Assembly: GCA_000403475.2 (NCBI GenBank) | Contig: KE159795.1 | Span: 736,807 to 800,806, forward strand | Direction: 5' to 3' | DNA: 64,000 bases | From: Lachnospiraceae bacterium MD308 | GTDB taxonomy: Bacteria > Bacillota > Clostridia > Lachnospirales > Lachnospiraceae | In this document: one piece after another, positions 48,667 through 64,000 of the stretch | Layout: every line of letters begins with the position of its first letter | How positions within the stretch are numbered: the stretch's first letter is position 1 | Notes under the pieces: model-generated | Databases searched by the model: none | The model's input: only the letters and a program-made list of their open reading frames with translations | Told to the model about the DNA's origin: nothing | Made by a program: the position numbers and the translations under genes

Positions 48667-49791
48667 ATGTGTAATGCGTTAGGAATTGTAAATTTTGCCG
48701 GAAATCATATCTGGGTAGAGGGGTTACACGACTACCGCCCGGTCGCAGCATTTTCATTCCTTGGAAGATACCGCGTCGTAGACTTTCCGATTTCCAATAT
48801 GAGCAACAGCGGCATGGATCATATTCAAGTATACTTAAATGCAAAACCCCGCTCTCTGATTGAGCATCTCGGCTCCGGCCGCCATTACAACATCAACTCC
48901 AAGCGTGGCAAGCTCCATATGTTGTTTGCCGACAGCATGATCGACCATGACATGTACAATAACGACATTGCCGCATACATGGAGAATTTAGAGAGCATAG
49001 CACATGCAAAAGAACCGTACGTTCTTGTCGCTCCAAGCTACATGGTGTATACCCAGGATTTCAATACTCTGCTTAACTCCCATATTGAGTCCGGGGCAGA
49101 CGTTACTCTGTTATACCATTCTGTTGACAATGCAAAGGATGCATATGTGAACTGCGACATTTTGAATCTCAATAAACAAAAGGGCGTCCTCTCTATTGAG
49201 AAAAATCGCGGGAATGCAAAGAACCGCAACATTTTTATGGATACATATGTAATGAGAAAAGAGCTTTTCATCGACCTCATCAAGAAGGCAAAAAAGACCT
49301 CTTCTCTCTATACCCTTTCTGATATTATCAGCAGCGAATGCGGTGAAAATGGCTCTTTAGATATACGCGGTGTTTCCCATCGGGGTTATTTCGCAGCCAT
49401 TACAGATTTTAAAGGGTATTACAACGCTAATATCGAGCTGACGGACTACAATGTCGCCAACTCACTGTTTGACTCAAGCTGGCCCATTTATACCAGAACT
49501 AACGATTCAAGCCCTACCCACTATTCCGAGGACGGCAGCGCGAAGAATTCTGTTATATCTAATGGCTGCTTGATTGAAGGCACGGTTGATAACTGCGTCA
49601 TCGGGCGCGGCTGCACAATCAAAGAGGGTGCTGTAGTCAAAAATTGTGTAATTCTCTCCGATGTAACTATCGGCGCAGGAATTCATGCAGAAAATCTTGT
49701 CATCGACCGCAACGCAAAACTTACCAAAGTAAAAGAAGTCGTTGCCAAAGACGGAGATCCGCACTATGTAAAGCGGTATGATGTAATTTAG
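48667..49791 (+). CDS. glgD: GlgD, non-catalytic partner of ADP-glucose synthase
   Basis: A 374-residue paralogue of GlgC. It keeps RYRVVDFPISN and the C-terminal beta-helix, but the N-terminal GGRGxRL loop of GlgC is missing (the N-terminus reads ALGIVNFAGNH). This fits the known regulatory, inactive GlgD subunit. The stop of glgC and the start of glgD are separated by a single base. Confidence 0.94.
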   Translation: MCNALGIVNFAGNHIWVEGLHDYRPVAAFSFLGRYRVVDFPISNMSNSGMDHIQVYLNAKPRSLIEHLGSGRHYNINSKRGKLHMLFADSMIDHDMYNNDIAAYMENLESIAHAKEPYVLVAPSYMVYTQDFNTLLNSHIESGADVTLLYHSVDNAKDAYVNCDILNLNKQKGVLSIEKNRGNAKNRNIFMDTYVMRKELFIDLIKKAKKTSSLYTLSDIISSECGENGSLDIRGVSHRGYFAAITDFKGYYNANIELTDYNVANSLFDSSWPIYTRTNDSSPTHYSEDGSAKNSVISNGCLIEGTVDNCVIGRGCTIKEGAVVKNCVILSDVTIGAGIHAENLVIDRNAKLTKVKEVVAKDGDPHYVKRYDVI

Positions 49792-49830
49792 ACATATCTC
49801 AATATATATAGGATGCTATAAGTAAAAACA

Positions 49831-49862
49831 GGTGAGAATCCAGCGTACAATGGATTCTCACC
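49831..49862 (+). terminator. Terminator of glgCD
   Basis: A 12-bp perfect stem (GGTGAGAATCCA with TGGATTCTCACC), then TTATTTAATCC. It may serve both this operon and the opposing iron-sulfur genes. Confidence 0.75.
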
Positions 49863-49921
49863 TTATTTAATCCTTTAATAACGAAAGCTATCTTGACGTT
49901 CCATGGATGATAACAGGATTT

Positions 49922-51190
49922 TCACTTTTCTTTCTGATACTTTGACAGGAGCCTGTCCAGATATACCGACTTGAACTGCTTGCTTGCCAGCGCCTGCTTA
50001 AGCGGCGGCAGCTTTAGTATCGTTCCGAACACCGCTGCCATTGCGCGGTGGTTCGCAAATGCCTGATTGTCAAATATCAGATTTTGCAGCGTTCCTTTTT
50101 CGATTGCCTGCAATACAAACCGGTGGGTGCTGTTCACCGGCGTAATGACCTGTATCGGCCTTCGCTCCAGGGAAATTGCTTTTGTCGGGCAGTTTCTTGC
50201 ACATACGCCGCATCCAAGGCAGATTTCCCCATCAATCACGGGGCGGCCTTCTTTCATGGAAATTGCCAGTATGGGGCAGACTTTCGCGCATTTTCCACAT
50301 CCGATGCATGTTTTGACGGATACCTTCGGCATATAGTTAGTGGTGGCAACGGGCTGCATGGGGCTGAATCTCCTCGCAGCCTGCAAAGCTTCGCAGCAGC
50401 ATCCGCAGCAATTACAAATAAACGCCGGGTGTTCCCTGACATTTTCACCGATCTGCACCAGATTACTCTCATAGGAACGCTCTAAGACTTCTTTCGCCTC
50501 CTCCTTGGAAATGAGCCTTGCATAATCCCCATGCTCTGCCAGGGAGCGAGCTACATTATCAAATGTCAGGCACACATCCCACGGCGCGTTTATCTCACAC
50601 GGATGCCCCGCATGATACATCTTATGCCTGCAATAGCAGGTTCCAAGGCCAATGTACTTCGCTTCCTCCACAATATGGGTCGCCCGTTCATAGTCAAGGA
50701 TGTGGTTCGTTTTGTCGTTGGTAAGGACAGGCTCCTGGACATATACCCGTCCAAGGCGTGTCTCTGTGGCAAAGAATAAATCTTTTACAAAATCCTCCTC
50801 CACGTTCATATATTGATAATAAAGCTCACTCAGATATTTCTGGTCTATGTCTCCCCTTGTTCGCATCAAGGCAAATTCGATAAATCCTGCCATCGGGGGC
50901 GGCATCACAAACTGCCTCTCCCCACGGTAATCAGAATCCACCAAAAGAGCTTTCTCGCAGAGGCGGTCTAATAGTTTCTCCGCTTTTGCCTCTGTTGTTC
51001 CCCAGATCCTTGCAGCCTTTTTCAGCGTAAAAGGGCGAACCGGCAGAAGCGCAACCCATTTTGCCTCTTTTTCTGTGTATAGAACCTGAAGAATCTTATA
51101 TAATGTATCGGACGCAGGCGCGCCCTGCGTAAACCAGTTGATCCTGTCCTCCAGATTTTTATATGCGTCCTTTGTCGTCAGATGTCCCAT
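49922..51190 (-). CDS. Iron-sulfur protein with an N-terminal winged-helix-like region and two 4Fe-4S clusters
   Basis: A 422-residue protein. Residues 35-110 (KEAKWVALLPVRPFTLKKAA) look like a winged helix. Cysteine-rich segments follow: GTCYCRHK, ICNCCGCCCE and a typical ferredoxin pair (CIGCGKCAKVCP and CLGCGVCARNCP, about 300-350). I recognise the pattern as a 4Fe-4S dicluster protein, role unknown. It lies 20 bp after the aldo/keto reductase gene, which also ends in a ferredoxin domain, so the two probably exchange electrons. Confidence 0.82.
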   Translation of the reverse strand: MGHLTTKDAYKNLEDRINWFTQGAPASDTLYKILQVLYTEKEAKWVALLPVRPFTLKKAARIWGTTEAKAEKLLDRLCEKALLVDSDYRGERQFVMPPPMAGFIEFALMRTRGDIDQKYLSELYYQYMNVEEDFVKDLFFATETRLGRVYVQEPVLTNDKTNHILDYERATHIVEEAKYIGLGTCYCRHKMYHAGHPCEINAPWDVCLTFDNVARSLAEHGDYARLISKEEAKEVLERSYESNLVQIGENVREHPAFICNCCGCCCEALQAARRFSPMQPVATTNYMPKVSVKTCIGCGKCAKVCPILAISMKEGRPVIDGEICLGCGVCARNCPTKAISLERRPIQVITPVNSTHRFVLQAIEKGTLQNLIFDNQAFANHRAMAAVFGTILKLPPLKQALASKQFKSVYLDRLLSKYQKEK

Positions 51191-51210
51191 GCTTTTCCCT
51201 CCTCAGCGCA

Positions 51211-52233
51211 TCACAGGCTTTTCCCAGCCAGAATCTCCTTGTAGTCTTTATAGTTCTTTTTCAAAAGCTCCGGCGTGTCAAGGCCATATGGACATTTTGA
51301 CCTGCATTTCCCACATTCCAGGCAGCCTTCTATTTTTTTCATCTTCTCCTGAGTCTCCTTATTCAAGAAATTGGCTGTTACCGCCCTGCGGATAAGAAGA
51401 GACATCCTGGCACAATTATTGATCTCTATTCCCGCCGGACATGGCATGCAGTATCCGCATCCCCTGCAGAAGTCACCCTTAAACTCTTTGATATCCTCCG
51501 CTATCCTTTCTGCTATGCCGCCTTCCATCTTCGGCGGGTTCTCCTGATAGGAAAGGAATTCGTCAAGCTCGCTCTCCCGCTGGATTCCCCAGATAGGCAG
51601 CACGTTGTCATATTCATTCATAAATGCGTAAGCCATCTCCGAATGGTTGATAAGCCCTCCTGCCAGCGCCTTCATCGCCAGGAACCCCATATCCTTTTCC
51701 CTGCACTGCTCCGCCAGCTCTTTCTCACTCTCCGAGCTCAGATAGCTGAAAGGAAACTGTAACGTATCATATAACCCGCTTTCAACCGCCTCACGAGCCA
51801 CTGCCAGACGGTGGTTGGTAATTCCGATATGGCGAATCTTCCCCTGTCTTTTCGCCTCAAGCGCAGCATCATATAATCCGTCTTCGCCGCCTGGTTTCGG
51901 GCAGAACGGCGGATTGTGAAACTGGTATACGTCTATGTAATCCGTTCCCAGTTTCTCCAGCGAGACTTCCAGATCCTTCCAGAAACCCTCCGCAGTTTCC
52001 GCCATTGTCTTTGTTGTTATGAAAATGTCCTCCCTCACGTCTGAAAGAGCGTAATGAATCTTTTCCTCGCTGTCAGAATATGCCCTCGCCGTGTCAAACA
52101 GGCGGATTCCGTTATCATACGCTTTTCTGAGTATCCTGGCCGCCTCCTCTTTTCCGGCTCTCTGAATCGGCAATGCCCCGAATCCGTTCTTATTGACTGT
52201 AATCCCTGTTCTTCCCAATCTTACTTTGTCCAT
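51211..52233 (-). CDS. Aldo/keto reductase with a C-terminal 4Fe-4S domain
   Basis: A 340-residue fusion. The N-terminal AKR barrel shows the tetrad region FDTARAYSDSEEKI (Asp and Tyr), ITTKT (Lys) and VYQFHN (His). The C-terminal part (about 255-325) has two cluster motifs (CRGCGYCMPCP and CLECGKCRSKCP). Such Fe-S reductases are common in Clostridia and may use ferredoxin electrons in place of, or with, NADPH. The start has GGAG at 8 nt. It is the first gene of the two-gene unit. Confidence 0.9.
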   Translation of the reverse strand: MDKVRLGRTGITVNKNGFGALPIQRAGKEEAARILRKAYDNGIRLFDTARAYSDSEEKIHYALSDVREDIFITTKTMAETAEGFWKDLEVSLEKLGTDYIDVYQFHNPPFCPKPGGEDGLYDAALEAKRQGKIRHIGITNHRLAVAREAVESGLYDTLQFPFSYLSSESEKELAEQCREKDMGFLAMKALAGGLINHSEMAYAFMNEYDNVLPIWGIQRESELDEFLSYQENPPKMEGGIAERIAEDIKEFKGDFCRGCGYCMPCPAGIEINNCARMSLLIRRAVTANFLNKETQEKMKKIEGCLECGKCRSKCPYGLDTPELLKKNYKDYKEILAGKSL

Positions 52234-52310
52234 AATCTCATCTCCACCCTTTCTTCGATGACTTTGACGCTAATATCTATTTCCTCTTGCATCATAAAAT
52301 CAGTATAACA

Positions 52311-52370
52311 TATATTATACTGGAATCCATCACTATTTTCTCTGTGCATCTATTGCTTTTTTTCTTTTTT
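52311..52370. repeat. Left 60-bp direct repeat bounding the accessory island
   Basis: It matches 61411-61470 in the same orientation at about 52 of 60 positions, including an exact core GGAATCCATCACTATTTTCTC. It lies upstream of the aldo/keto reductase gene, just past the terminator at 52385-52418. Confidence 0.85.
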
Positions 52371-52384
52371 GTGAAAAATATTCA

Positions 52385-52418
52385 GGAGCGATGTAACTCG
52401 TATGAATCACATCGCTCC
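52385..52418 (-). terminator. Terminator of the island membrane-protein gene
   Basis: A 10-bp perfect stem (GGAGCGATGT with ACATCGCTCC), followed on the minus strand by TGAATATTTTT, 40 bp past the stop at 52459. Confidence 0.75.
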
Positions 52419-52458
52419 CTGCTATGGACTATCTATTTCCCGACAGCCCCATTTCATT

Positions 52459-53130
52459 TTACTCCTTATTTTTATTCTGTATCTTGTAATCAAACAGATA
52501 AAATACCAGTGCACCGAGCGCAACCGTGACCAACATATAATAAGCCGCCTCCACTTTTGTAAGATAGCAGAATGCCAGACAGACAGCCAAAGGTATCAGA
52601 TACAGGCCTATCTGTTTTTTGCTTTTTATAATACTCTGTGCAACAAGCCCTCCAAAAAGTGCCGGTATAGCAAAATTAAATGCGGGCTGCAGGGATTCAT
52701 TCTGTAGAATGGGCTTTAATGGAACGGAAAACAACATTCCCAGACACAAAAGTACGATCGTCGTTATATTCGACGCGCCGCAGGCTATGATCGCCATCGT
52801 ATGGCACTCGTCTGTATTTGGCTCAAGTTCCAGGGCATTCATTGTTCCTACTGTGGCGGGCATATGAAGATTCGTTACATTTCCGGTTGTATATGACATA
52901 TACAGCGCTCCCGGTCCCATTGTTGTCATATATCCAAAATATTCTGCAGGCCACCATGGCGCAAGTATAAGCGTCAATGTGATAATACCCGGAATAATCA
53001 TCTTGAAGTCAGGCCATACACCGTAAACCATACTTATTACAATCGGGAAAGAGCTCATTAGTATCAGTAAGATTGCGCTGGAACCCATCCCAAAATTGTG
53101 TACCCACTTTGTAAAGCTTTCTTTTGTCAT
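52459..53130 (-). CDS. Multi-pass membrane protein of unknown function
   Basis: A 223-residue protein with about six hydrophobic helices. Its middle loop (MPATVGTMNALELEPNTDECHTM) is more hydrophilic and holds Cys and His. I do not recognise a family. The ATG at 53130 follows AAGGGGG. It overlaps the stop of the TnpW-like gene by 4 bp (ATGA), and it lies inside the repeat-bounded island, so it may be element cargo. Confidence 0.65.
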   Translation of the reverse strand: MTKESFTKWVHNFGMGSSAILLILMSSFPIVISMVYGVWPDFKMIIPGIITLTLILAPWWPAEYFGYMTTMGPGALYMSYTTGNVTNLHMPATVGTMNALELEPNTDECHTMAIIACGASNITTIVLLCLGMLFSVPLKPILQNESLQPAFNFAIPALFGGLVAQSIIKSKKQIGLYLIPLAVCLAFCYLTKVEAAYYMLVTVALGALVFYLFDYKIQNKNKE

Positions 53131-53369
53131 AATATCTGCCCCCTTCCTCTCACAATGCCACACACGCGATATCCCTGTTTGTCATTAGGCGGTTTGACGG
53201 TTTCCGATTTTATGAGCCGTATCATCTTGTCGCAGAGCCGTTCTGAGCCGCCGCAGGAGGCAGACACTTCATAGTATGTGCCGCCGATTTTGTTGCAGAC
53301 GGTTTCCTCTGTCGGCTTCCCTTTTTCGGGCAGATAGCCGCTGTCCTTGATTTCCAGTTCCCAATCCAT
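53127..53369 (-). CDS. TnpW-like transposon-encoded small protein
   Basis: An 80-residue protein. The segment IGGTYYEVSASCGGSERLCDKMIRLI has the TnpW-type pattern (TYxVS, then a helix with KIxRLI) found in Clostridial conjugative transposons. The frame is open 16 codons upstream of the ATG at 53369, which has GGAAGGG at 6 nt. The last residues (RGRGQIL) read through the ribosome binding site of the next gene and may be non-native, marking a recombination junction. Confidence 0.6.
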   Translation of the reverse strand: MDWELEIKDSGYLPEKGKPTEETVCNKIGGTYYEVSASCGGSERLCDKMIRLIKSETVKPPNDKQGYRVCGIVRGRGQIL

Positions 53370-53513
53370 TCTTTTCCCTTCCTTTCCGTATTTGCTAAAT
53401 GATAAGTTTCGGAGCAAGCATATGAATGAGTTTTAATAGGAACACTGTAATATCAAGGCTTTTCGGAGCCAGCAACCACAAAAAAATATTATTTGAGCTA
53501 TCACATTACGCAG

Positions 53514-53546
53514 AAAGCCGTCCGACATGAAAAAACGGGCGGCTTT
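53514..53546 (+). terminator. Terminator-like hairpin inside the element remnant
   Basis: Stem AAAGCCGTCC with GGGCGGCTTT, followed by TTTGCG, in the non-coding stretch between the TnpW-like gene and the GC-rich element gene. Confidence 0.5.
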
Positions 53547-53642
53547 TTTGCGTGGATAGCCGGGAGGGAGGCGAAAAAATAGTAACAAACTTTTAGCGCA
53601 AGATTTGTGCAACATTCACGAAATTAAAAAAGGAGGTAACGA

Positions 53643-54107
53643 ATGGCAGACGAAAAATTAAACGTGAGCCCGGAGGAAAATCCCCAGCCCAGCTTGTTCG
53701 ATACCGGCTCGGAGGGTGCTCCTGCCCAGGACGCTCCCGCCCCGGAGCCCCCGGCCCCGGAGAATGTCTCCGCTGACCAGATTGAAAAGCTGATGGCGGA
53801 GCGGCGGGCGGCGGAACGTGCGGAGGTGGAAAAGAACGAGCCGCCCGAACCGGAACAGCCGCCCACCCCGGCCCCGGAGGAAAAGGCCGTCGAGGAAAAG
53901 GGGCCCGCCAAAAAGGACAAGGCCCTCAAAGAAAAAGCTCCCGAGCCGGATAAGTCCAAGGGCAGGCGGGGCCGCAAGCCCAAGGAAGAAAAAGCGGGGC
54001 CCGGTGAACCGGGAGGGACGGGGGCCGCCGTGGCCGCCCGGCCAAGGCTGATAAGGCGGCCCCGGACAGGCCCCCGTCCCAACCTCGAGACAAAATCGAG
54101 CTGTTGA
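53643..54107 (+). pseudogene. Broken GC-rich element gene (Pro/Glu/Lys/Ala-rich protein)
   Basis: The frame starts with AGGAGG before ATG and is far richer in GC than its neighbours. It codes an unfolded, charged protein (PEPPAPENVS, GRRGRKPKEEK) like the N-terminal parts of Clostridial element proteins. Near 54030-54045 the sense changes frame: after AAVAA the +1-shifted frame reads RPAKADKAAPDRPPSQPRDK, which is clearly the true continuation. It is then cut off by the IS1182-family element at 54098. The gene is thus frameshifted and truncated. The parent protein was not identified. Confidence 0.75.
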
Positions 54108-55663
54108 CAAACCTCTTGCCAAAAAGATTTGCATATAAGAAAATATATGTGTATATATGTGTAGATGAATTCTTGAGGTGATACATTATGATGACGAAAA
54201 GAGAAAACCAACAGATAGAAATGCATTTGATAACAATTGAAGATTTAGTTCCTATGGATCATTTGCTTCGGAAAGTAAATGATATCATTGATTTTTCATT
54301 CATATATAACGAAGTAGAAAATATGTACTGTCATAACAATGGGCGTCCATCTATTGATCCAGTGGCCTTAATCAAGTTTCTTCTCATCGGTTTTCTTTAT
54401 GGCATCAATTCCGAAAGAAGAATATCAGAAGAGATTCAGGTGAACATGGCATACCGTTGGTTTCTTGGTCTTGATATCATGGATAAAGTTCCAGACCATT
54501 CTACGATTTCCCAGAACAGACGACGCCGTTTCAACGGCAGTGATCTTTTTCGGAATATCTTTCAGAAAATTGTTTCCATATGCATAGAAAAGGGTCTGGC
54601 AGACGGCAAGCTGGTTTTTACGGATTCGACACATATGAAGGCAAACGCATCCCGCAACACAGAATACATCAAACAAACAGAAGAAGTAACAAATGAATAC
54701 ATCAAAGAACTAGACCAGTATGAAGAAACGGTACGGGACCAGTTGGAATCGGAAGGGAAAATCAAGCCCGTCAGATGCAGGAAACGGAAGGAAAAAATAG
54801 AAATCATTAGCCGCCGTGAAAGCAGAACAGATCCTGAATCGGGATTTTACAAGAGGAAAGGGAAAGCGGAGGGAATGCACTACTTGTCGCATGAAACCGT
54901 AGACTCTAAAAACGGAATCATAATTGATGTGGCAGCTACAGCCGGTAATGTGCCTGACAGCCAGCCGTATATCAAAAGGATTGATTATATTGAGAAAAAT
55001 CTGGGTTTAAAAATACAGGAAGCATGTGCCGACAGTGGCTATGACACAAACCTTATCAACCAACAGTTATCAGAAAGAGGCATAAATTTTTATACACCTA
55101 AAAGAACAGAGCAAAAAAGAGGAACTACAGAATTTCAAAGGAAAGATTTTCAGTATGATGAAAAGGATGACAGATTCATCTGTCCTGGAGGAAAAGCACT
55201 TCCGCTGCACCGGCTCAATAGAACAATCAATACTGTAACAAAAGAGTACCGCTGTCCAAAGGCTGAATGTAAAGACTGTCCATTCCGTAACAGGTGCATA
55301 GGAGAAAAAGGTTCTGATAAAAGAATTCAAGTAAATATTTTTGAAGACGTTGTAAAAAAGAATCATGAAAAGGATGGTACGGAAACACACACCAAGGTTT
55401 TGCTTCTGCGACAGATATGGAGCGAAGGCAGCTTTGCGGCGCAAAAGTCAAGACATAACTTGAAATTCTTATACAGAAGAGGATTAGAGGCGGCTGAACA
55501 GCAGTGCCTCTTATCGTCAACGGCATTAAATCTTAAAAGGATGATAAAGGCCATGGCATAGGGAACCATGACCTTTTTCTTTGGAATATTTTTGCTATCT
55601 TTGCTAGATTTTTATCATGATATCTTGTGACATTTACGAAATTAGAGGGTTTGTCAACAGCTC
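54098..55663 (+). mobile_element. IS1182-family insertion sequence
   Basis: A complete element of about 1566 bp. Its ends are inverted repeats: GAGCTGTTGACAAACC at 54098-54113 and its complement at 55648-55663; the similarity reaches a few bases further on both sides (AAAAT next to each end). It holds one intact transposase. No clear target-site duplication was seen. It sits between a broken element gene and the lantibiotic-immunity operon. Confidence 0.88.
54188..55561 (+). CDS. IS1182 family transposase
   Basis: A 457-residue DDE transposase with an intact frame. It has an N-terminal DNA-binding region (GRPSIDPVALIKFLLIGFLY), the first catalytic Asp in VFTDSTHMKANA, an ADSGYD site and a C-terminal CxxCPFRNRC zinc-like motif. 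The start can be either of two ATGs at 54188 and 54191, with GAGGTG upstream. The intact frame suggests the insertion is recent or still active. Confidence 0.93.
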   Translation: MMTKRENQQIEMHLITIEDLVPMDHLLRKVNDIIDFSFIYNEVENMYCHNNGRPSIDPVALIKFLLIGFLYGINSERRISEEIQVNMAYRWFLGLDIMDKVPDHSTISQNRRRRFNGSDLFRNIFQKIVSICIEKGLADGKLVFTDSTHMKANASRNTEYIKQTEEVTNEYIKELDQYEETVRDQLESEGKIKPVRCRKRKEKIEIISRRESRTDPESGFYKRKGKAEGMHYLSHETVDSKNGIIIDVAATAGNVPDSQPYIKRIDYIEKNLGLKIQEACADSGYDTNLINQQLSERGINFYTPKRTEQKRGTTEFQRKDFQYDEKDDRFICPGGKALPLHRLNRTINTVTKEYRCPKAECKDCPFRNRCIGEKGSDKRIQVNIFEDVVKKNHEKDGTETHTKVLLLRQIWSEGSFAAQKSRHNLKFLYRRGLEAAEQQCLLSSTALNLKRMIKAMA

Positions 55664-55689
55664 ATTTTTAGGGTGCCGAAGTTTTTGTC

Positions 55690-55726
55690 AAATCTTCAAG
55701 AAATCTTCAAAATCATTTGGTATCGT
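55690..55726 (+). promoter_or_regulatory. Response-regulator box 1 and promoter of the immunity ABC operon
   Basis: An 11-bp direct repeat, AAATCTTCAAG then AAATCTTCAAA (55690-55711), followed after 9 nt by a -10-like TATCGT (55721-55726). The same layout recurs at 60444-60480. It fits the OmpR-family mode of binding to 11-bp direct repeats in place of a -35 box, as known for lantibiotic regulators; which regulator binds is inference from position. Confidence 0.65.
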
Positions 55727-55759
55727 TAGACCACAATCTCAAGAGAGGATGTGTCTAAT

Positions 55760-56467
55760 ATGAGTTATATTTTGCAAACAACAAATCTCTGCAAAAATTT
55801 CAAAGGACAAATGGCGGTAGACAATGTATCGTTGAATATTCAGCGCAACTCAATTTATGGGCTGCTTGGGCCAAATGGTGCGGGGAAATCTACCATCTTG
55901 AAAATGATTACAGGTATTCTCCGTTCCACCTCTGGCGCGATTGAATTTGACGGACATCCGTGGAACCGGGCGGATTTGGAAAACATTGGTGCTTTGATTG
56001 AGATGCCTCCGCTCTATGAAAATCTCTCGGCCTATGAAAACCTGAAAGCCCGAACACTGGCCCTGGGGCTTCCAGAAAGCCGCATCAAGCAAGTGCTTGG
56101 TATTGTGCAACTTGAGAATACTGGAAAAAAACGGGCAGGCCATTTTTCGCTGGGAATGAAACAGCGGCTTGGAATTGCCTTGGCTCTGTTGTCACAGCCC
56201 AAATTGCTTATCTTGGACGAACCGACAAATGGGTTAGACCCGATTGGTATTCAAGATTTGCGTGAGCTTATCAGAAGTTTTCCGCAAAAAGGGATCACCG
56301 TCATATTGTCCAGTCATATACTCTCCGAAGTTGAGCAAATCGCTGACCACATTGGCATTATATCTGCCGGACATTTAGGCTATGAAAACGAAATCCATAA
56401 GAACCACGATCTGGAACGTATTTTTATGGATGTTGTTGGCGCACATAGGGAAAGGAGTGAGAAATAA
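55760..56467 (+). CDS. Lantibiotic-immunity-type ABC transporter, ATP-binding subunit
   Basis: A 235-residue LanF/MutF-like ATPase: Walker A LLGPNGAGKST, the signature LGMKQRLGIALAL, Walker B LLILDEPTNGLDP and the H-loop SSHIL. With the two permeases it should export or remove membrane-targeting peptides. The frame opens at a GTG (55751) 2 nt after GAGAGG; the ATG at 55760, 11 nt after, is more likely. The stop shares one base with the next start (TAATG). Confidence 0.92.
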   Translation: MSYILQTTNLCKNFKGQMAVDNVSLNIQRNSIYGLLGPNGAGKSTILKMITGILRSTSGAIEFDGHPWNRADLENIGALIEMPPLYENLSAYENLKARTLALGLPESRIKQVLGIVQLENTGKKRAGHFSLGMKQRLGIALALLSQPKLLILDEPTNGLDPIGIQDLRELIRSFPQKGITVILSSHILSEVEQIADHIGIISAGHLGYENEIHKNHDLERIFMDVVGAHRERSEK

Positions 56468-57198
56468 TGTTCGGGATTGTACGTTCGGAACTTCTTAAAA
56501 TGCGGCACAGCTTCTCAATGAAATTGATTTTTGGTGCGCCATTGGCAACTGTACTTGTCGGCTTTTTATTGAGCAGTCATGCAGTACAATATTCGGCTTA
56601 CAACTGGTGGTACACTATGCTTCTTCCTGTTGTGACCGCACTGTGGGCCGCAGGTACAGTTATCCGTGAGAAAAATACAGGGCTGCAAAACATTGTTTGT
56701 TTGCCGTTCCCTTCTGCGAAAATATGGATTGGCAAAGGACTTACCCTGACTGCTGTGCTTTTTATCAGCAATCTGCTCATGTGGTTATTTACTACGGGAA
56801 TTGCCAGTTTTACGACTATGAATATTTCGCCGCTGGACAGCATAATCGGCTGTATGCTGCTGTTCCTTACTTGCTTGTGGCAACTCCCTTTTGTTATGCT
56901 GATAGCAAGCAAAACAGGGTATCTTCCCTCTGTGCTAATAACTTTTGTGGCGAATATTGTTTCATCTACTATTGGCGCAGAAAAAGCATGGTTCTTTCTT
57001 AATCCATACGCTATTCCGGCCCGTGTAGTTTGCCCATTTTTCAAGATACGTCCTAACGGACTTCCCATTGAGGACGGTTCTCCGTTATTGGCTATTGAGC
57101 ACATTTTTCCCGCTCTTGCCATTAGCTTGGCATTGGCTGCTGCCTCCTTTTGGATTTGCTCTAAATTGCTTGGAAGTGGGGGAAAGTCCAATGGCTAA
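56467..57198 (+). CDS. Lantibiotic-immunity ABC transporter permease, MutE/EpiE-like
   Basis: A 243-residue protein with six hydrophobic helices. It begins FGIVRSELLKMRHSFSMKLI and has the family pattern TVIREKNTGLQNIVCLPFP. It is the LanE-type half of the permease. It overlaps the ATPase gene by one base and the next permease by 8 bp, so all three are tightly coupled. Confidence 0.88.
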   Translation: MFGIVRSELLKMRHSFSMKLIFGAPLATVLVGFLLSSHAVQYSAYNWWYTMLLPVVTALWAAGTVIREKNTGLQNIVCLPFPSAKIWIGKGLTLTAVLFISNLLMWLFTTGIASFTTMNISPLDSIIGCMLLFLTCLWQLPFVMLIASKTGYLPSVLITFVANIVSSTIGAEKAWFFLNPYAIPARVVCPFFKIRPNGLPIEDGSPLLAIEHIFPALAISLALAAASFWICSKLLGSGGKSNG

Positions 57199-57943
57199 CT
57201 ATATCTGCTATTTGAAAAGTGATTTATACAAATTGTGTCATTCCTGTTTTTTCCTTCTGCACGCTATTTTTGCCGTATGTGGGGCGGCTATGATGTCACT
57301 GTATGCAGGCGTTTCCCAAAGCGATGACATCAATAAACTGGCTGCTTATTTTCAGATCATGGCCGTTGCTTTTCCCTTTGCAATCGGGATTGTCTGCTAT
57401 GTTGCAGCAGAACAGGAAGCAAAAGCAGGACATTTTCAAAATATATTGACACTTCCATACAGACAGAAAGCCGCTCTTTCCAAATTGACTATTTTGCTTG
57501 TGACTGGACTTTTGGCAACCGTATTGAGTAGTGTACTATTTGGTGCGCTATTTCCACTGGTTGGCGGCACAACTGAAATTCCTTCCGGATTTTATACAGT
57601 AATTCCACTTGTCCTTTGGGGCAGTAACATTTTGCTGTATGGTATTCATTTCGTATTAGCAATTCGATTTGGTAAAAATTTGGGAATAGGGATTGGCGTG
57701 TTCGGGAGCCTTTTGGTTGCGCTTCTCCAAACAGGATTAGGCACGGGCATCTGGTTTGTCATCCCTTATGGTTGGGGTATTCGTTTTTCTTCTTACGTTC
57801 AGGAAACGACCTTTGGCCTAATGCCGCCAGACAGAATAGGTATGGATTTTGGCATCATCTTTTGCATATTGTCAACTTGTGCTATAATAGGAATTGCAGT
57901 CCTCTGGTTTTCCAGATATAACGGAAATCGGTCAGCCGATTGA
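57191..57943 (+). CDS. Lantibiotic-immunity ABC transporter permease, MutG-like
   Basis: A 250-residue six-helix permease starting ANYICYLKSDLYKL and carrying EQEAKAGHFQNILTLPYR, the same pattern as in the MutE-like partner. The ATG at 57191 lies within the end of the upstream gene; the frame extends 41 codons upstream but only over that gene. It is the LanG-type half of the permease. Confidence 0.88.
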   Translation: MANYICYLKSDLYKLCHSCFFLLHAIFAVCGAAMMSLYAGVSQSDDINKLAAYFQIMAVAFPFAIGIVCYVAAEQEAKAGHFQNILTLPYRQKAALSKLTILLVTGLLATVLSSVLFGALFPLVGGTTEIPSGFYTVIPLVLWGSNILLYGIHFVLAIRFGKNLGIGIGVFGSLLVALLQTGLGTGIWFVIPYGWGIRFSSYVQETTFGLMPPDRIGMDFGIIFCILSTCAIIGIAVLWFSRYNGNRSAD

Positions 57944-57960
57944 GAATGGAGGTAGAACTG

Positions 57961-58320
57961 ATGAATTGGTTGGGCAATATTATTTGGTTCTTGTGCTGCG
58001 GACTGTGGCAGGGAATTTCTTGGCTGATTGCCGGTGTTTTATGGAGCATTACCATTGTCGGTATTCCGATTGGCCGTCAATGCTTTAAGTTTGCGTCACT
58101 TGCTTTCTTCCCTTTTGGAAAAGATGTGAATTATGGCGGCGGTGCTATGTCTGCGATTGCCAATATCTTGTGGCTGCTTATCAGCGGTATCCCTTTGGCG
58201 TTGGTGGCGCTGCTAAATGGGTTGCTTTTGTGTTGTACGATTATCGGTATTCCTTTCGGGGTACAGTGCTTCAAAATGGCAAAGCTGGCGTTGATGCCTT
58301 TTGGCGCAACAGTAATGTAG
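57961..58320 (+). CDS. YccF domain-containing membrane protein
   Basis: A 119-residue protein made of two similar YccF units: WSITIVGIPIGRQCFKFASLAFFPFG and a second copy (CTIIGIPFGVQCFKMAKLALMPFG) with two hydrophobic stretches each. Its biochemical role is unknown. The ATG at 57961 has GGAGG at 8 nt. It lies between the ABC genes and the regulator genes in the same direction and is probably part of the immunity operon. Confidence 0.88.
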   Translation: MNWLGNIIWFLCCGLWQGISWLIAGVLWSITIVGIPIGRQCFKFASLAFFPFGKDVNYGGGAMSAIANILWLLISGIPLALVALLNGLLLCCTIIGIPFGVQCFKMAKLALMPFGATVM

Positions 58321-58401
58321 ATGTCCTTGGAGTGCGAGTAGGGCCATGAAAAAGAGGTTATCTCAAGCGGGATATATAAACTTGGACAGAGAGGTGAGAT
58401 A

Positions 58402-59061
58402 ATGGCGCATATATTGGTAGTGGATGATGATATAGCTATGCTCCAGCTTGTCAGGCGTGTTTTAGAAAAAGATCAGCATTTAGTTACACTTCAATCAAAC
58501 GCCAAAGCAGTCACAGAAATGGATTTTTCAAAGTTTGGTTTGATTTTACTGGATGTTATGATGCCGGAAATTGATGGTTTTGACCTCTGCAATCAAATCC
58601 GTGACCGTGTAGATTGCCCGATCATTTTCCTTACTGCAAAAACGCAGGAAAGTGAAATTGTTCAGGGATTAGGACTTGGAGCAGATGACTATATCACGAA
58701 ACCGTTCGGGACAAACGAACTTAGAGCGCGGGTAAATGCTCACCTGCGGCGTGATATAAGAGAAAAGAAAAACAGCTTTTCAATATCCGGCGTCATTTTC
58801 CGCCTCAATGCGAAAGAAGTTGAAATCAACTCAAAAAAGATTCCGTTGACAAAAAGTGAGTACGAAATATGCGAATATCTGGCGCGACATCATGGACAAA
58901 CATTTACGCGGGAGCAAATCTATGAGGCGGTCTTTGGATTTGAAGGAGAAAGTGATAGCTCTGTTATCTCTACTCACATCAAGAATATACGCGGGAAGTT
59001 AGCTGAATTTCACTTGTCAACGCTTGAAACAATTTGGGGGGTTGGCTACAAATGGGTGTAA
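58402..59061 (+). CDS. OmpR-family response regulator of the immunity module
   Basis: A 219-residue regulator with a receiver (DDD acidic pair, LLDVMMPEIDG, LTAKTQ, TKPF) and a C-terminal winged helix (IPLTKSEYEICEYL, VISTHIKNIRGKL). It resembles the NisR/SpaR group by gene context and by its kinase partner. It starts after GAGAGG and overlaps the kinase gene by 10 bp. It is the likely reader of the AAATCTTCAAR direct repeats at 55690 and 60444. Confidence 0.93.
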   Translation: MAHILVVDDDIAMLQLVRRVLEKDQHLVTLQSNAKAVTEMDFSKFGLILLDVMMPEIDGFDLCNQIRDRVDCPIIFLTAKTQESEIVQGLGLGADDYITKPFGTNELRARVNAHLRRDIREKKNSFSISGVIFRLNAKEVEINSKKIPLTKSEYEICEYLARHHGQTFTREQIYEAVFGFEGESDSSVISTHIKNIRGKLAEFHLSTLETIWGVGYKWV

Positions 59062-60407
59062 GAAAACTGCGTACCGTTTTTATGAAGTATGCGATATTTC
59101 TTGCGCTTGGTGTCTTTCTGGTTGCTTTTGTCAACATAGCCATCTATCTATTTGGAGTTGAAATTGGATTTATATACCCAATAAATAGAATGAGCGCAGA
59201 AATAGAAAATGCGAGGGGAAGTTTACAATCCACAGATCGGATTACAGAAAATGAAATACCACCTCTTTGTGAATATGCCCTTTTCACAAAAGACGGAAAA
59301 TATATTGGCGGTTCGCTCGATCAGGAAGAACCAGCTTCCGTTTGGAAAATGTGCATTGTGAACAATCAGACGAGCAGCAAGCCTTATCTGTATGCTGTGA
59401 TAGACAGGACTGACGAAATACTGATTTTAAGGTATAGAATGACCGCCCAATTCAGCAATCCACTGCTGCATAGAATATTTTCTTCGGCAGATTGGGTTTT
59501 AATTGCTGTCATTATATTGGAAATCCTGCTTCTCTTGATTGTTTTGTCATATCTATTCGGGAAATACCTTGGGAACAAAATGGATAAATTGCTGACTGCT
59601 GTAAAGAAAATTGAGCAGCAGGATTTGAATTTTGAGGTTGAAAAAAGCCATTTATATGAAATCGACTTAACTCTTGACGCACTCAATCACATGAAATTGG
59701 CACTAAAAAAATCGCTTACAGAACAATGGCAGGCCGACAAACTGCGGCAAGAACAGATTTCTGCATTAGCCCATGATCTCAAGACACCGCTAACCATCAT
59801 CCGAGGCAATACGGAATTGTTGTACGATACTGACTTAACAATAGAACAACAGGAATGTGCTGACTACATCACAGACAGCTATACGCAGATGCAAGTTTAT
59901 GTTAAAACCCTGATAGACCTGTCTACGGCTTCAACAGGGTATCAGCTTAATAAAGAAATCTTTAATTTTCCTGATTATCTAAAGCAAGTGAAAGTATCAA
60001 TAGATGCTTTGTGCAGGACAAAAGAAATTCATTTGCGAATGAGTATGTCCGACATCCCGATGCAACTAACCGCAGATAAGGTTTTGTTAGGACGTGCTAT
60101 TCAAAATGTGGTAAATAATGCGTTGGACTATTCCCCTCAAGATGGAACACTTCATATAGATGTCTGCGGAAAAGACGATTTCGTTGAAATTTCAGTCACG
60201 GACGAGGGGGAAGGATTTTCTATCGAAGCGTTGCGGCACGCGCAAGAACAATTCTTTATGGACGACCAAAGCCGTAATTCAAAGATGCACTTTGGTATGG
60301 GCCTATATATTGCAAAATCCATTATGGAACAACATAGTGGTGAGCTTGTCTTAGAAAACTCCAAAAGTACAGGCGGTGCAAAAGTAATTTTGAAAATTCC
60401 ATTTTGA
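59052..60407 (+). CDS. Sensor histidine kinase of the immunity module
   Basis: A 451-residue kinase with two helices (about 11-33 and 148-171) around an extracellular part of about 110 residues. Then come a HAMP-like linker, the H-box ALAHDLKTPLTIIRG, which is typical for kinases of lantibiotic systems (HDLxTPLT), and a complete ATPase domain (NVVNNALDYS, DEGEGF, FGMGLYIAKSIM). The ATG at 59052 overlaps the regulator. The inducing peptide is unknown. Confidence 0.92.
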   Translation: MGVRKLRTVFMKYAIFLALGVFLVAFVNIAIYLFGVEIGFIYPINRMSAEIENARGSLQSTDRITENEIPPLCEYALFTKDGKYIGGSLDQEEPASVWKMCIVNNQTSSKPYLYAVIDRTDEILILRYRMTAQFSNPLLHRIFSSADWVLIAVIILEILLLLIVLSYLFGKYLGNKMDKLLTAVKKIEQQDLNFEVEKSHLYEIDLTLDALNHMKLALKKSLTEQWQADKLRQEQISALAHDLKTPLTIIRGNTELLYDTDLTIEQQECADYITDSYTQMQVYVKTLIDLSTASTGYQLNKEIFNFPDYLKQVKVSIDALCRTKEIHLRMSMSDIPMQLTADKVLLGRAIQNVVNNALDYSPQDGTLHIDVCGKDDFVEISVTDEGEGFSIEALRHAQEQFFMDDQSRNSKMHFGMGLYIAKSIMEQHSGELVLENSKSTGGAKVILKIPF

Positions 60408-60411
60408 TAGG

Positions 60412-60436
60412 ATGGGTGGCTTTTATAGCCACCCAT
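60412..60436 (+). terminator. Terminator of the immunity module
   Basis: A 10-bp perfect stem (ATGGGTGGCT with AGCCACCCAT), loop TTTAT, then TTTTGC, right after the kinase stop. Confidence 0.88.
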
Positions 60437-60443
60437 TTTTTGC

Positions 60444-60480
60444 AAATCTTTATGAAATCTTCAAAAACTTCTCTTATTAT
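60444..60480 (+). promoter_or_regulatory. Response-regulator box 2 and promoter
   Basis: AAATCTTTATG then AAATCTTCAAA (60444-60465), 9 nt, then TATTAT (60475-60480). It is the same arrangement as box 1, with identical spacing. It reads rightwards into a stretch that has only a 13-residue frame and element remnants. Confidence 0.65.
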
Positions 60481-60871
60481 ATCTCTAAAGTAAATGATCT
60501 GCCCAGCGGCAGAAAAGAAAAAACCGTTGCTGGGCAGGCCGATTCCTCATGTCCAAACGCTCTTTCCAGTGGCGGTTTTGATTATTCAAAGCCGCCATTT
60601 TTATATCCACCGGCGGCACATAGGAGGACGCCGCCATGCGACAAAAGGTAGATAGGCATTTATCAAAAAAAGCCTGACCCCCACAGCGGCGAACTCCACC
60701 CAGACTTGCGAAAACAGTCGTTTCCTGACGGCTCATACTGTTATGCCCTGCACCCGAATGGTCTTGCACCATACGGGCGTTTTTCTATTTCCGGGCCAGC
60801 GACACCGGCCTCGCTGCCGTTCCCCGCCCTTCCTCGTTCAGACCCCAAAAATCTGAACGGAGGAAAGAACG
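60481..60871 (+). other. Non-coding element remnant with hairpins
   Basis: No large gene. It holds a GC-rich hairpin GGCGG-N-CCGCC with a following T-run (about 60573-60602), a further GGCGGC/GCCGCC pair near 60611 and 60630 that can form alternate stems with it, and a hairpin around CCCGAATGG-N-CATACGGG before GTTTTT (about 60754-60788). The layout is like control regions of Clostridial conjugative transposons. Confidence 0.5.
60636..60677 (+). CDS. Possible 13-residue leader peptide
   Basis: MRQKVDRHLSKKA, preceded by AGGAGG at 8 nt. Its start region contains GCCGCC, which can pair with CGGCGGC just upstream and hide the ribosome binding site. A leader peptide of a regulated element transcript is the best guess. 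Confidence 0.35.
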   Translation: MRQKVDRHLSKKA

Positions 60872-61191
60872 ATGGAAATTACCATCAAAATCAACGGGCG
60901 GTTTGTGTCTGTCGAGGTCAGCGCCGAGGTTGCCGACTATCTGGAACAGGCCAAGCGGAACAACAGGAAACTCTACCGTGAGCGTCAGCGGTATTGGGAT
61001 GGGCGCGAGTGTAACGAGTACATAATCGCTACGGAAGGCCGCTTACCCTACTGCGCCACGCCGGAAGAATTGGTCTGCCAGCGGGAAACGCTGGATGAAA
61101 TTCTGGCGGTGCTGGCGCTCTGCACCGACACCCAGCGGGAGCGGTTTTTGCTCCATGCTCTGTATGATTTTAGCTATGCGGAGATTGCCTC
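60872..61191 (+). pseudogene. Truncated sigma-like element protein
   Basis: The N-terminal about 106 residues (EITIKINGRFVSVEVSAEVADYL and later CTDTQRERFLLHALYDFSYAEIA) match the sigma-70-like/ORF7-type regulators of Clostridial conjugative transposons. The helix-turn-helix that should follow SYAEIG is missing: the frame runs on into foreign sequence (SRSIRLSRKR) to a stop at 61252. The gene is cut at about 61188-61191 by the join to the IS3 remnant. Confidence 0.75.
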
Positions 61192-61287
61192 AAGGAGTAT
61201 AAGGCTCTCCAGAAAGAGAACCAGCGCCTTAAGATTGAGAATGAAATACTAAAAAAAGCGACCGCCATATTCGCGAAAGAACAATAG
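61192..61287 (+). pseudogene. 3' remnant of an IS3-type orfA
   Basis: In another frame than the sigma-like gene, this reads KEYKALQKENQRLKIENEIL and ends KKATAIFAKEQ then stop, the leucine-zipper C-terminus of OrfA of IS3-type elements. No orfB follows; 61288-61410 has no gene I can support. Confidence 0.75.
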
Positions 61288-61410
61288 CCCAGATTGTGAC
61301 TTTTATCCAATAAGGGGCTTTCCGGTTTATCTGCAGGATGAAAACCATTCAAAAACAAAGTAAAGGCAGAGAATAAATTACTATACTCCGCAACAACGTC
61401 AAAGACAGGA

Positions 61411-61470
61411 TATATTATGCCGGAATCCATCACTATTTTCTCTACGCATATATTGCTTTTTTTCTATATC
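61411..61470. repeat. Right 60-bp direct repeat bounding the accessory island
   Basis: Counterpart of 52311-52370 (about 87% identical, same orientation). It is followed by the YczE-type gene with a 54-bp gap. Confidence 0.85.
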
Positions 61471-61524
61471 CGTGATACGATTTTTACCACTGTTTAATAT
61501 TTTCAGAAAATGAGGTTTATGCAA

Positions 61525-62187
61525 ATGAAGCGAAGTTTAAAAGAAATAACGCTGCGGCTAGTATTACTGTTTACCGGGCTTGTCATCGCCCACCTGGGAG
61601 TTACGCTGTTCTTACTGACGGAACTTGGAGCCGACCCTTTCAACGTCTTTGTGCAGGGCATCTTCCGGACGCTCCGAAACTTTCTGGGCATGCTGACCCA
61701 TGGCTACACTCACGTGTCCATCTGCATTATCATCATACTTTTGCTGCTCATAATCGACAAAAGCTACATAAAGATCGGAACTGTCGTGTGCATGGTATTC
61801 GGCGGCCCCATCATCGACTTTTTCACACGCATTTTAAATACTTTCATCCACGCCGGCAATCCTTTTGCTTTGAGGATCGCAACACTCGCCGCAGGATGCG
61901 TGATCTTGGCTTTCGGCATGACCATCGTCATAAAGTCTGATGCCGGCACCGGGCCAAATGACCTGGTAGCAATCGTCATCAGCGACAAGCAGTCAAAGCC
62001 TTTCGGACAGGTGCGTATTATCGTGGACTTCTGTTTTGTCGCTATCGGATTCCTCCTTGGAGGAGCCGTGGGTATCGGAACTATTATCAGCGCATTCCTC
62101 GTAGGCCCCATTGCCGGAGTCTTTTTGCCCTACAGCGAAAAAATAGTGAATCGTGTAATTTCAGCCGTTATCCGCATCTTACCATAA
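61525..62187 (+). CDS. YczE/YyaS/YitT-type membrane protein
   Basis: A 220-residue protein with five to six hydrophobic helices and the family patterns LGADPFNVFVQG near the N-terminus and SDAGTGPNDLVAIV in the second half. YczE-like proteins are integral membrane proteins of unclear function. Three ATGs are in frame (61510, 61519 and 61525); the last has GAGG 9 nt before and gives MKRSLKE. It flanks the right repeat of the accessory island. Confidence 0.86.
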   Translation: MKRSLKEITLRLVLLFTGLVIAHLGVTLFLLTELGADPFNVFVQGIFRTLRNFLGMLTHGYTHVSICIIIILLLLIIDKSYIKIGTVVCMVFGGPIIDFFTRILNTFIHAGNPFALRIATLAAGCVILAFGMTIVIKSDAGTGPNDLVAIVISDKQSKPFGQVRIIVDFCFVAIGFLLGGAVGIGTIISAFLVGPIAGVFLPYSEKIVNRVISAVIRILP

Positions 62188-62427
62188 ATCACAAGAAAAT
62201 TTCTATAATAAAAATTTATGGAAGAGCTTAGCAGAATTTTTATCACAGAAAACTTTTTGCCTGGTTAAGTAAAAAAGGCAATAAAAATCCCGCCTTACAA
62301 AAGACTGGATTTTATTAAAATATAGTTTACTCGTCCTATTTAATAGCGATGCCGCCCTCACCCGGAAGCTGGACAACCAGAATCAATATCTTGACCGAAC
62401 TCCGGCGCAGCAGGAAACCGCCGACAA
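62188..62427. other. AT-rich gap with a possible coding fragment
   Basis: 62188-62320 holds nothing I can support. From about 62342 the plus strand is open to a stop near 62473 and reads NSDAALTRKLDNQNQYLDRT, then PAQQETADNHSNFDV. This looks like the C-terminal end of some protein, but there is no start and I do not recognise it. Confidence 0.3.
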
Positions 62428-62622
62428 TCACTCTAATTTCGACGTCAAAAAAGAGGGTGTACCGCAACATACATAATTTTCATCCAGCAGAATTATATTC
62501 CCGTTTCCGAGATCCGGGAATTTCTGTGCGATTTCTTTCAGAACCTTCCACTCGTCTTTGGAGTTTTCCCGGTTATCTTCCTCCACCTGTCTTAATGCCT
62601 CTCCAATCTCCTGCTGATCCAT
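62428..62622 (-). CDS. Doubtful small ORF (64 residues)
   Basis: An acidic peptide (MDQQEIGEALRQVEEDNREN, then a helix and NIILLDENYVCCG). AGGAG-like sequences before the ATG are poor. It overlaps the opposite coding fragment and the broken ORF upstream. It could be a remnant of the same region. No family is recognised. Confidence 0.25.
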   Translation of the reverse strand: MDQQEIGEALRQVEEDNRENSKDEWKVLKEIAQKFPDLGNGNIILLDENYVCCGTPSFLTSKLE

Positions 62623-62967
62623 TGTACCCCAGTAAAGAGGGTGGGGCTGAAAGGACGAATTGGTACTTGCCCCCTTCGTAGCAAAAAAGCAGGAACAGGG
62701 GATTTTTCAAACAATTCTTTCTTTGCCCCGTCAAGCTCCTTGACTTCCAGACAATAACAACCGTTTACGGCTGCCGCCCCTTCCTGCGCAACCATATTTG
62801 CAATAGCCATGATTGTCAGCGGCTCTGTTTTCACGATCATTCCGGGAACCAAAAGCCCCTCTTCGTACAGTTCCCTTAAATATTCGCCTGGAAATTCCCC
62901 CACCGCCCGCCATAGGAAAAACAACGCAATAAGAATACATATGAGGGCAGGAAGCCAACTTTTTTTT
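62592..62967 (-). pseudogene. Membrane-anchored protein fragment joined to the amidase frame at an A8 tract
   Basis: From the A8 tract (62967-62960 on the minus strand) on, this frame gives SWLPALICILIALFFLWRAV (a membrane helix), then a soluble part (EPLTIMAIANMVAQEGAAAV, GCYCLEVKELDG). It reads like real protein, unlike the amidase frame over the same bases. It has no start codon of its own with a ribosome binding site in a sensible place. It may be a gene whose 5' end was lost, or the shifted end of the amidase. Family unknown. Confidence 0.5.
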
Positions 62968-63750
62968 ATTGGAAATTCCTTCTGCAATTCTCTGTGCCAA
63001 ACTTTCCTGATAATCGTCATCCAACAGCTTTTGACTTTCAGAATAGTTTGAGAGAAATCCCATTTCTACCAAAACAGCGGGCAATTGTGTGTTTCGCAAA
63101 ACATAATAGCCCTCTGTTTTTGCATACCTCGTTTCAATATCCTCACTTAGCGAAACTGCGTTGATGATACTTTCTGCATATCCTTTGCTTTCTGTCGCAT
63201 TTGAATTATTGTAATAACATTCCAATCCTGCTATCTGGGCATCTTTCTCATAGTAATTGCAATGAAGACTGATAAAAAAATCTGCATTGGAGTCATTTGC
63301 AACAGAAGTACGATCTGCAAGGCTTATATTTTCATCGGAGCTTCTGGTCAGAATAACTTCTATATTGTCATTTTCCAGAATAGCTTTCAGCTTCAATGCA
63401 ACTGAAATGTTAATATCCTTTTCTACTGCCTTGCCGCTGACAGTACCTCCGTCACTTCCTCCATGCCCTGCATCCACGACAACACAAAACTCTGGGGCAT
63501 TATTCTCTGTTGAAGCAACAGGAGCAACATCGTTGCCTGCGTTAATATCTGTGTATATATCCGTGTATTTATTTACCTTTTCATCTTCCTTTGTAAATCT
63601 CTCGTATATGTAAAGACATCCGCAAACCATAAGTATCATCATTATAATTGATATCAGTATGAGGATTGCCCTCAGCAGATACGCAATCATAAGCCGCTTA
63701 ATCTTTCTCTTCCTGAGTTTTTTCCTCTTTCGGTATTGTTTCCTGTTCAT
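62731..63750 (-). CDS. N-acetylmuramoyl-L-alanine amidase (Amidase_3), C-terminus of doubtful frame
   Basis: A basic N-terminus (about 1-20), a membrane helix (about 21-48) and a zinc amidase domain (about 88-258) that cuts the amide bond between muramic acid and the peptide. Zinc ligands are His96 (DAGHGG), Glu110 and His163 (SLHC), and Glu229 (VEMGF) is the catalytic base. The domain ends near AEGIS (260). The remaining about 80 residues are Arg/Gly/Cys-rich and unlike any amidase; they follow an A8 run and are probably out of frame. The start overlaps the upstream gene by 53 bp; a later ATG at 63690 is possible. Confidence 0.8.
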   Translation of the reverse strand: MNRKQYRKRKKLRKRKIKRLMIAYLLRAILILISIIMMILMVCGCLYIYERFTKEDEKVNKYTDIYTDINAGNDVAPVASTENNAPEFCVVVDAGHGGSDGGTVSGKAVEKDINISVALKLKAILENDNIEVILTRSSDENISLADRTSVANDSNADFFISLHCNYYEKDAQIAGLECYYNNSNATESKGYAESIINAVSLSEDIETRYAKTEGYYVLRNTQLPAVLVEMGFLSNYSESQKLLDDDYQESLAQRIAEGISNKKKLASCPHMYSYCVVFPMAGGGGISRRIFKGTVRRGAFGSRNDRENRAADNHGYCKYGCAGRGGSRKRLLLSGSQGA

Positions 63751-64000
63751 TGCCGCATTTGTTCCTCATTCTGGAATAATGGCTTTTGGGTAAAGCAATT
63801 TCCTCACCACTTTCTTTTGATAACACATAAATATTTCCTGTATCACAGGTAACAGACATTGCAGGTATATGACTGATCAATTTTTTGTTATTCCCGTCCT
63901 TGCCGCAGGAATACAAGTCTCCGCCGTCCGTCCTGGAAATATAATAGATTGACTGCTCATCCATGCAGAAATCATATGCAACTATATTTTCATAAGTGTA
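63698..64000 (-). CDS. DUF5050-like protein, 3' part only
   Basis: The frame is open to the window edge, so the start is outside. The visible 100 residues hold a repeat of beta-propeller type (YYISRTDGGDLYSCGKDGNN, then IYVLSKESGEE), which recalls DUF5050-like repeats, and end in a Lys/Glu-rich tail. It overlaps the amidase start and is probably in the same operon. Confidence 0.6.
   Translation of the reverse strand, partial: YTYENIVAYDFCMDEQSIYYISRTDGGDLYSCGKDGNNKKLISHIPAMSVTCDTGNIYVLSKESGEEIALPKSHYSRMRNKCGNEQETIPKEEKTQEEKD

Follow-up and report, generated by a model that had tools for sequence, protein, structure and literature searches.

Target duplications of 5-6 bp are the norm for the IS1634 family of insertion sequences (ISs), whose members are tabulated at 1500-2000 bp (PMC2266710), and ISGka5 of Geobacillus kaustophilus, with a 6-bp duplication, is of this kind (PMC8024623). 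IS1634 itself, from Mycoplasma mycoides, and IS1549, from Mycobacterium smegmatis, have long and variable duplications of 8-514 bp; these came to light in publications of the late 1990s, and a review of 2008 that covers them notes that no mechanistic model had been proposed and, in the part of it drawn on here, names no promoter preference for either element (PMC2266710). The subject here is a 64,000-nucleotide stretch of the Lachnospiraceae bacterium MD308 genome (the window), in which a 56-bp direct repeat brackets some 9 kb of accessory DNA between an aldo/keto reductase (AKR) gene and a yczE-like gene, and which very probably preserves the scar of an element of the long-duplication type. 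Intact relatives of that element resemble IS1634 and IS1549 in their transposase model and in having long, variable duplications; their 53-214 bp contrasts with the 5-6 bp of ISGka5-type members that share the family name, and their right ends, in a way that the review does not describe for IS1634 or IS1549, are fixed to the -10 box of promoter-like sequences.

The features that carry the argument are these:

52310-52365, no strand assigned: left copy of the direct repeat, 51/56 identical to the right copy and with the same starting base; read as the left target-duplication copy of an IS1634-family insertion, trimmed on its inner side.
61410-61465, no strand assigned: right copy of the direct repeat, beginning directly at the IS right end, after GTCAAAGACAGG.
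61333-61402, + strand: remnant of an IS1634-family element from a whole-element search (IS positions 1822-1891, 70 bp of the IS 3′ end, 86% identity; host coordinates G000:C1:798139-798208).
61398-61409, + strand: terminal 12 bp of the same IS, GTCAAAGACAGG, with about 55 bp inside it deleted.
52366-52382, + strand: possible remnant of the IS left part, matching one other copy (L145) at 15 of 17 positions; suggestive only.

The pairing of the two copies given above is the best ungapped frame, and when the two flanking 2-kb stretches were compared the runner-up pair of 56-mers matched at 32 of 56 positions. The first-pass annotation of this DNA had described a repeat pair of 60 bp, and its frames do match at 52 of 60 positions, so the repeat is real. 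Identity between the copies ends at the outer edge of each. A search of the 4.46-Mb host genome with the left copy returned the second copy at an E value of 5e-16, and the remaining 12 matches listed are of 16-35 bp with E values of at least 0.03; the host genome holds only two copies, and the worry that this might be a dispersed repeat falls away. The sequence is absent from all five genus mates searched, and among 397 family genomes (host included) six non-host genomes have partial matches of 23-36 bp, which are read as chance. An Rfam search of 49000-64000 gave no match.

What that annotation overlooked is the IS remnant touching the right copy, whose first base (61410) directly abuts the right end of the element. 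The 14 bases leading into the right copy, GTCAAAGACAGGAT, have exact matches at two other places in the host genome, each before unrelated DNA, and in other genomes the same end terminates a roughly 2-kb element whose complete transposase gene stops some 100 bp inside it. The whole-element search of the host genome found seven pieces, 61333-61402 among them. The transposase of an intact host copy (L180) is of the IS1634 family (NF033559, 358.8 bits for a cut-off of 100) and carries the DDE domain PF01609; the window remnant is too small for a transposase assignment of its own and is placed by its 86% identity to the 3′ end. Relatives of the element are about 1960-2023 bp long, at or just above the family range, and have short, poorly conserved inverted ends, CGGGAGTTTGACAGTT and CCTGTCTTTGACAGTT, of which the window retains the right one only. 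At first GTCAAAGACAGGAT had been taken for the end of an integrative conjugative element, as it occurs at two host loci 72 kb apart (L181 and L185) with the same 88-bp repeat; intact copies with an IS1634 transposase inside identify it as the IS end, the other element being nested. A large-serine-recombinase element lies inside the IS right end at the same IS position in two host copies (L181:5229, L145:17236 and L185:13497, corresponding to 1416228, 817235 and 1486496 of G000 C1), and at one of these two the recombinase gene is interrupted by about 63 kb of additional nested DNA.

Of the 21 full-length relatives for which both flanks could be read, 16 have perfect target duplications, 53-214 bp long, that begin at this same right end. 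A first set of intact relatives gave 135, 76, 73, 85 and 94 bp, all ten copies fetched from one genome (G513) gave 78, 214, 175, 60, 53, 88, 177, 165, 202 and 144 bp, and a copy in G116 gave 91 bp; re-measurement of all 16 returned the same range of 53-214 bp. Left out of this count are L350, where what looks like a repeat would imply an IS length of 1246 and an offset of 15 and is read as spurious, L273, whose left flank is off the contig, the split host copy at L181/L185, and copies with a truncated or no transposase. The split copy, near 1.41 Mb of the host genome and interrupted by another element, has an 88-bp duplication that is 100% identical, and at L294, also outside the count, there is a 127-bp duplication of which 70 bp is on the contig. 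More distantly, a copy on a Carnobacterium plasmid (L352, transposase 48% identical) is flanked by direct repeats of 175 and 144 bp. The IS1634-family copy there, with its repeat pieces on either side (L352:932-1365 and 3329-3637), is situated between a PTS gene and one for a DeoR-type regulator, and about 115 bp between repeat pieces of the left copy is missing from the right. The variable lengths in the relatives are within the 8-514 bp described for IS1634 and IS1549, and the window repeat, at least 56 bp long, has the geometry of the relatives in starting at the base after the IS end.

Because the right copy abuts an IS end at which intact relatives carry long duplications, the 56-bp repeat is read, with a probability of roughly 85%, as an old and partly trimmed target-site duplication of an IS1634-family element inserted between a divergent AKR operon and yczE. 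The element would have entered the gap between them with its right end joining at AT-rich DNA that resembles a -10 box directed towards AKR and its left end joining further towards yczE, and long-stagger repair would have duplicated the stretch between, so that AKR retained the left copy and yczE the right. The greater part of the IS, namely its left end, its body and about 55 bp near its right end, would later have been lost, and other mobile DNA would then have accumulated between the copies. A deletion running into the IS may have trimmed the left copy, in which case the original duplication exceeded 56 bp. That the interval is accessory DNA and that the repeat pair marks one insertion, as the first-pass annotation proposed, is borne out; its view of the repeats as the ends of a single 9-kb mobile unit is not, as they look like the target duplication of an IS of about 2 kb, with the rest later debris.

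In the relatives a -10 box (TATAAT) lies next to the right end, its downstream edge meeting the IS, and a spacer of 17 bp separates it from a -35-like box upstream. Read towards the IS, 34 distinct right-end flanks have T29, A33, T22, A30, A34 and T34 of 34, counts in which the last two positions are forced, since the search patterns behind this set, and behind 28 earlier sites, end in AT and the filters require AT. The search was therefore repeated without forced bases in 392 genomes of the order, and 36 previously unseen flanks were kept, 22 of which begin with AT unforced. On average these fresh sites agree with TATAAT at 4.67 of 6 positions, as against 2.18 when shuffled (0/2000), and with TTGACA at a spacer of 17 at 2.67 of 6, as against 1.70 (0/2000); all other spacers from 13 to 21 give at most 1.83, so that the peak is at 17 alone. 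The Carnobacterium plasmid copy has TTGACA-17-TATATT at its right end. In two relatives (L260 and L261) the left duplicate keeps the promoter in place ahead of a gene. Genes read away from the duplicated promoter in 13 of 16 cases, an uncontrolled count that is not used as evidence.

It seems rather likely, if well short of sure, that the long-duplication elements of the IS1634 family are promoter-guided transposons. The right end would be joined at the downstream edge of a promoter's -10 box, perhaps where RNA polymerase holds the promoter or has opened it, and the left end at a point 50-200 bp upstream of it, and gap repair would then copy the whole promoter; with one promoter copy retained by the target gene, insertion would be nearly harmless. 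Polymerase, open DNA and the transposase itself are all candidates for the reader of the -10 signal. Joining guided in this way would account for both the length and the variability of the duplications. We infer that the event in the window would have followed the same route, with promoter recognition guiding the insertion and the left copy now driving AKR. In a literature search at title and abstract-start level, with most subscription journals outside its coverage, no report of promoter targeting by the IS1634 family was found.

A simpler account of the pattern, namely a mere preference for AT-rich, TATAAT-like DNA unrelated to promoters, would fit with every target being AT-rich, with some lacking a -35-like box, and with the target of the split host copy lying within a gene. 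It is nevertheless unlikely. When the 64 pooled sites (28 earlier and 36 fresh) were compared with further instances of these hexamers elsewhere in the fetched DNA, the -35 match at spacer 17 was 2.94 against 1.73 for this hexamer-matched background (0/1000), a -35 match of at least 4/6 at spacers 16-18 was found at 31 of the 64 sites as against 20% of background TATAAT sites. In the set of 34 flanks, as in the fresh sites, the peak is confined to spacer 17.

As to the window repeat, same-orientation flanking repeats are typical of integrative elements, and fragments of a serine-recombinase element do lie inside the island, so that the repeats might be attachment sites at which an element carrying the whole 9 kb was integrated by site-specific recombination. 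Strand exchange by large serine recombinases is not known to yield a long target duplication; moreover what the right copy abuts is the end of an IS and not that of an integrase-bearing element, no complete recombinase gene is seen between the copies in the list of open reading frames (ORFs), and a tRNA gene search of the window found none. The same IS end precedes unrelated flanks at the 34 distinct sites, so the repeat belongs to the host and was not brought in as a site on an element, and this origin is very improbable. Still harder to credit is a regulatory or promoter cassette placed independently upstream of AKR and of yczE, with the island beside it by chance: each copy does precede a gene, and the likely yczE promoter overlaps the right one, but the host genome has no other copy, the other family genomes searched give short partial matches only, the two copies are oriented oppositely relative to their genes, and one begins at the exact base where an IS ends. 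From those opposite senses the first-pass annotation had argued against a shared promoter, an argument that fails in part if the IS group aims at promoters, the left copy bearing a TATAAT towards AKR. A composite transposon was also considered and rejected, as cargo bounded by two like ISs is not what is seen: there is one IS1634 remnant on the right and a weak 17-bp match on the left, in single-IS order.

The duplication reading places the insertion in a gap whose two sides are now as follows:

52302-52321, no strand assigned: 20-bp palindrome AGTATAACATATATTATACT, continuing over the outer edge of the left copy towards AKR; read from the sequence.
52314-52319, - strand: TATAAT, -10-like and directed towards AKR, at a distance of 4 bp from the insertion point; read from the sequence, with none reported by a strict scan.
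61453-61481, + strand: likely yczE promoter TTGCTT-17-TACGAT, over the outer edge of the right copy; by-eye likeness to five other yczE loci (L063-L067), with none reported by a strict scan.
51211-52233, - strand: AKR with a 4Fe-4S domain (PF00248, PF13534), left neighbour; four of the five genus mates have it at 85-87% identity.
49922-51190, - strand: 4Fe-4S protein downstream of AKR; ferredoxin-type matches, the best below cut-off; conserved beside AKR at L141-L143.
61510-62187, + strand: YczE-like membrane protein, right neighbour (NF052291, 97 of 205 bits).

Native context is apparently kept on the outer side only of each copy, with the palindrome and the likely yczE promoter running across the outer edges, and a similar TTGCC-N17-TATGAT/TACGAT is present, by eye, upstream of yczE at the five other loci. 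In the window, as at one of these loci (L063), a glgD/glgC pair (so named from ORF reading) is found some 1.3 kb from yczE, a likeness that speaks for yczE being native to this place. The ancestral site was probably the arrangement that the first-pass annotation had envisaged, AKR and yczE divergent and a single repeat copy in the gap. Beyond yczE, an amidase-type gene and its neighbours (62959-64000 and further; L145, L177) are 97.6-97.8% identical to a stretch of a genus mate (G002), in contrast to 79-82% for AKR, the Fe-S gene and the stretch 49000-49800, and are read as a recent transfer.

Several observations weigh against an IS1634-family duplication at this place, or against its promoter-guided origin. 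The copies differ at 5 of 56 positions. Five of the 21 full-length relatives (L264, L271, L272, L293 and L345) have no duplication, and a copy on a Lactobacillus plasmid (L353, 38% identical) has neither a duplication nor the -10/-35 pattern at its right end. The left copy is adjoined by a membrane-protein gene and not by an IS left end; the hint of one is the weak 17-bp match at 52366-52382, a score reached also by 8 of 2000 random 40-mers of the window and 2 of 500 shuffles, and the signal is absent when the other three IS copies tested are used. The hexamer at the window junction, ATATAT, matches TATAAT at 2 of 6 positions, the TATAAT being 4 bp away and with no good -35, and the strict promoter scan gives nothing at either repeat copy; the window's own insertion site is atypical for the pattern. 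The predicted empty site was not found either through yczE (61 genomes, 80 genome-contig loci) or through AKR (61 genomes): the five genus mates have no yczE above 33% identity, and an AKR of the same kind is nearby at just one of the 80 yczE loci (L109), where it is not divergent. Finally, in all four genus mates that have AKR a macrodomain gene is directly upstream of it, and in the host the macrodomain block is elsewhere (G000:C1:1578214-1589784, L179), which implies that AKR moved before or around the insertion event and that its position is not ancestral. AKR and its Fe-S partner (49922-52233) are thus parted from the macrodomain gene found upstream in the genus mates.

The interior between the copies is read as later, layered mobile debris:

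52459-53130, - strand: intact small membrane-protein gene, family not assigned; no Pfam or NCBIfam match; 90% identical DNA in another genome (G001:C13).
52384-52419, - strand: intrinsic terminator of the membrane-protein gene, 16 pairs.
53170-53426, - strand: large-serine-recombinase element fragment; 91-96% copies beside recombinase genes at L184, L185 and L145.
53419-54096, + strand: GC-rich mobile-element gene fragment, 90-97% identical at two places in G002.
54092-55669, + strand: IS1182-family element bounded by 22-bp inverted repeats; its transposase scores 394 bits with NF033551 (cut-off 270).
55751-60407, + strand: cargo of an ABC transporter, a YccF protein, a response regulator and a histidine kinase.
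60872-61187, + strand: sigma-like gene stub (PF08281, 21.6 bits, below the cut-off of 25.7).
61189-61309, + strand: transposase gene fragment, with a 90% copy at G000:C3:430283-430403.

The intact membrane-protein gene and its terminator beside the left copy were passed over in the first-pass annotation. The counterpart of this gene at 90% lies near the RNA polymerase genes of its genome (names from ORF reading), and relatives of the protein with 27-94% identity are present in 25 of 195 non-host genomes searched. The island's serine-recombinase component is the neighbouring fragment, which had been called a TnpW-like gene; there is no Pfam or NCBIfam match to uphold that name, and what the DNA does show is a 91-96% copy of a host stretch beside a large serine recombinase gene. 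Of the other earlier gene calls, those of AKR, the IS1182-family transposase and the ABC/two-component module hold; YczE is the best match for its gene at a score under half the curated cut-off of 205 bits, and the sigma-like stub falls below its cut-off. The transposase fragment at 61189-61309 we take, from the look of its protein, to be of IS3 type, as the first-pass annotation also had it. A 42-nt direct repeat (79%) at 55682-55723 and 60436-60477 flanks the ABC/two-component cargo and may be a binding site for the response regulator or part of a second promoter copy.

In practical terms, where an unexplained direct repeat of 50-500 bp is met beside a mobile remnant, it can be checked for an IS scar of this kind before a genomic island is claimed. 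From the perspective of transposition, one end fixed at the -10 box and a cut at varying distances upstream of it would provide a testable mechanism for the long duplications of IS1634 and IS1549. If this is correct, the elements would form a class of IS that duplicates promoters while sparing genes, and they would be a simple source both of additional promoters and of transcripts running antisense into the element itself.

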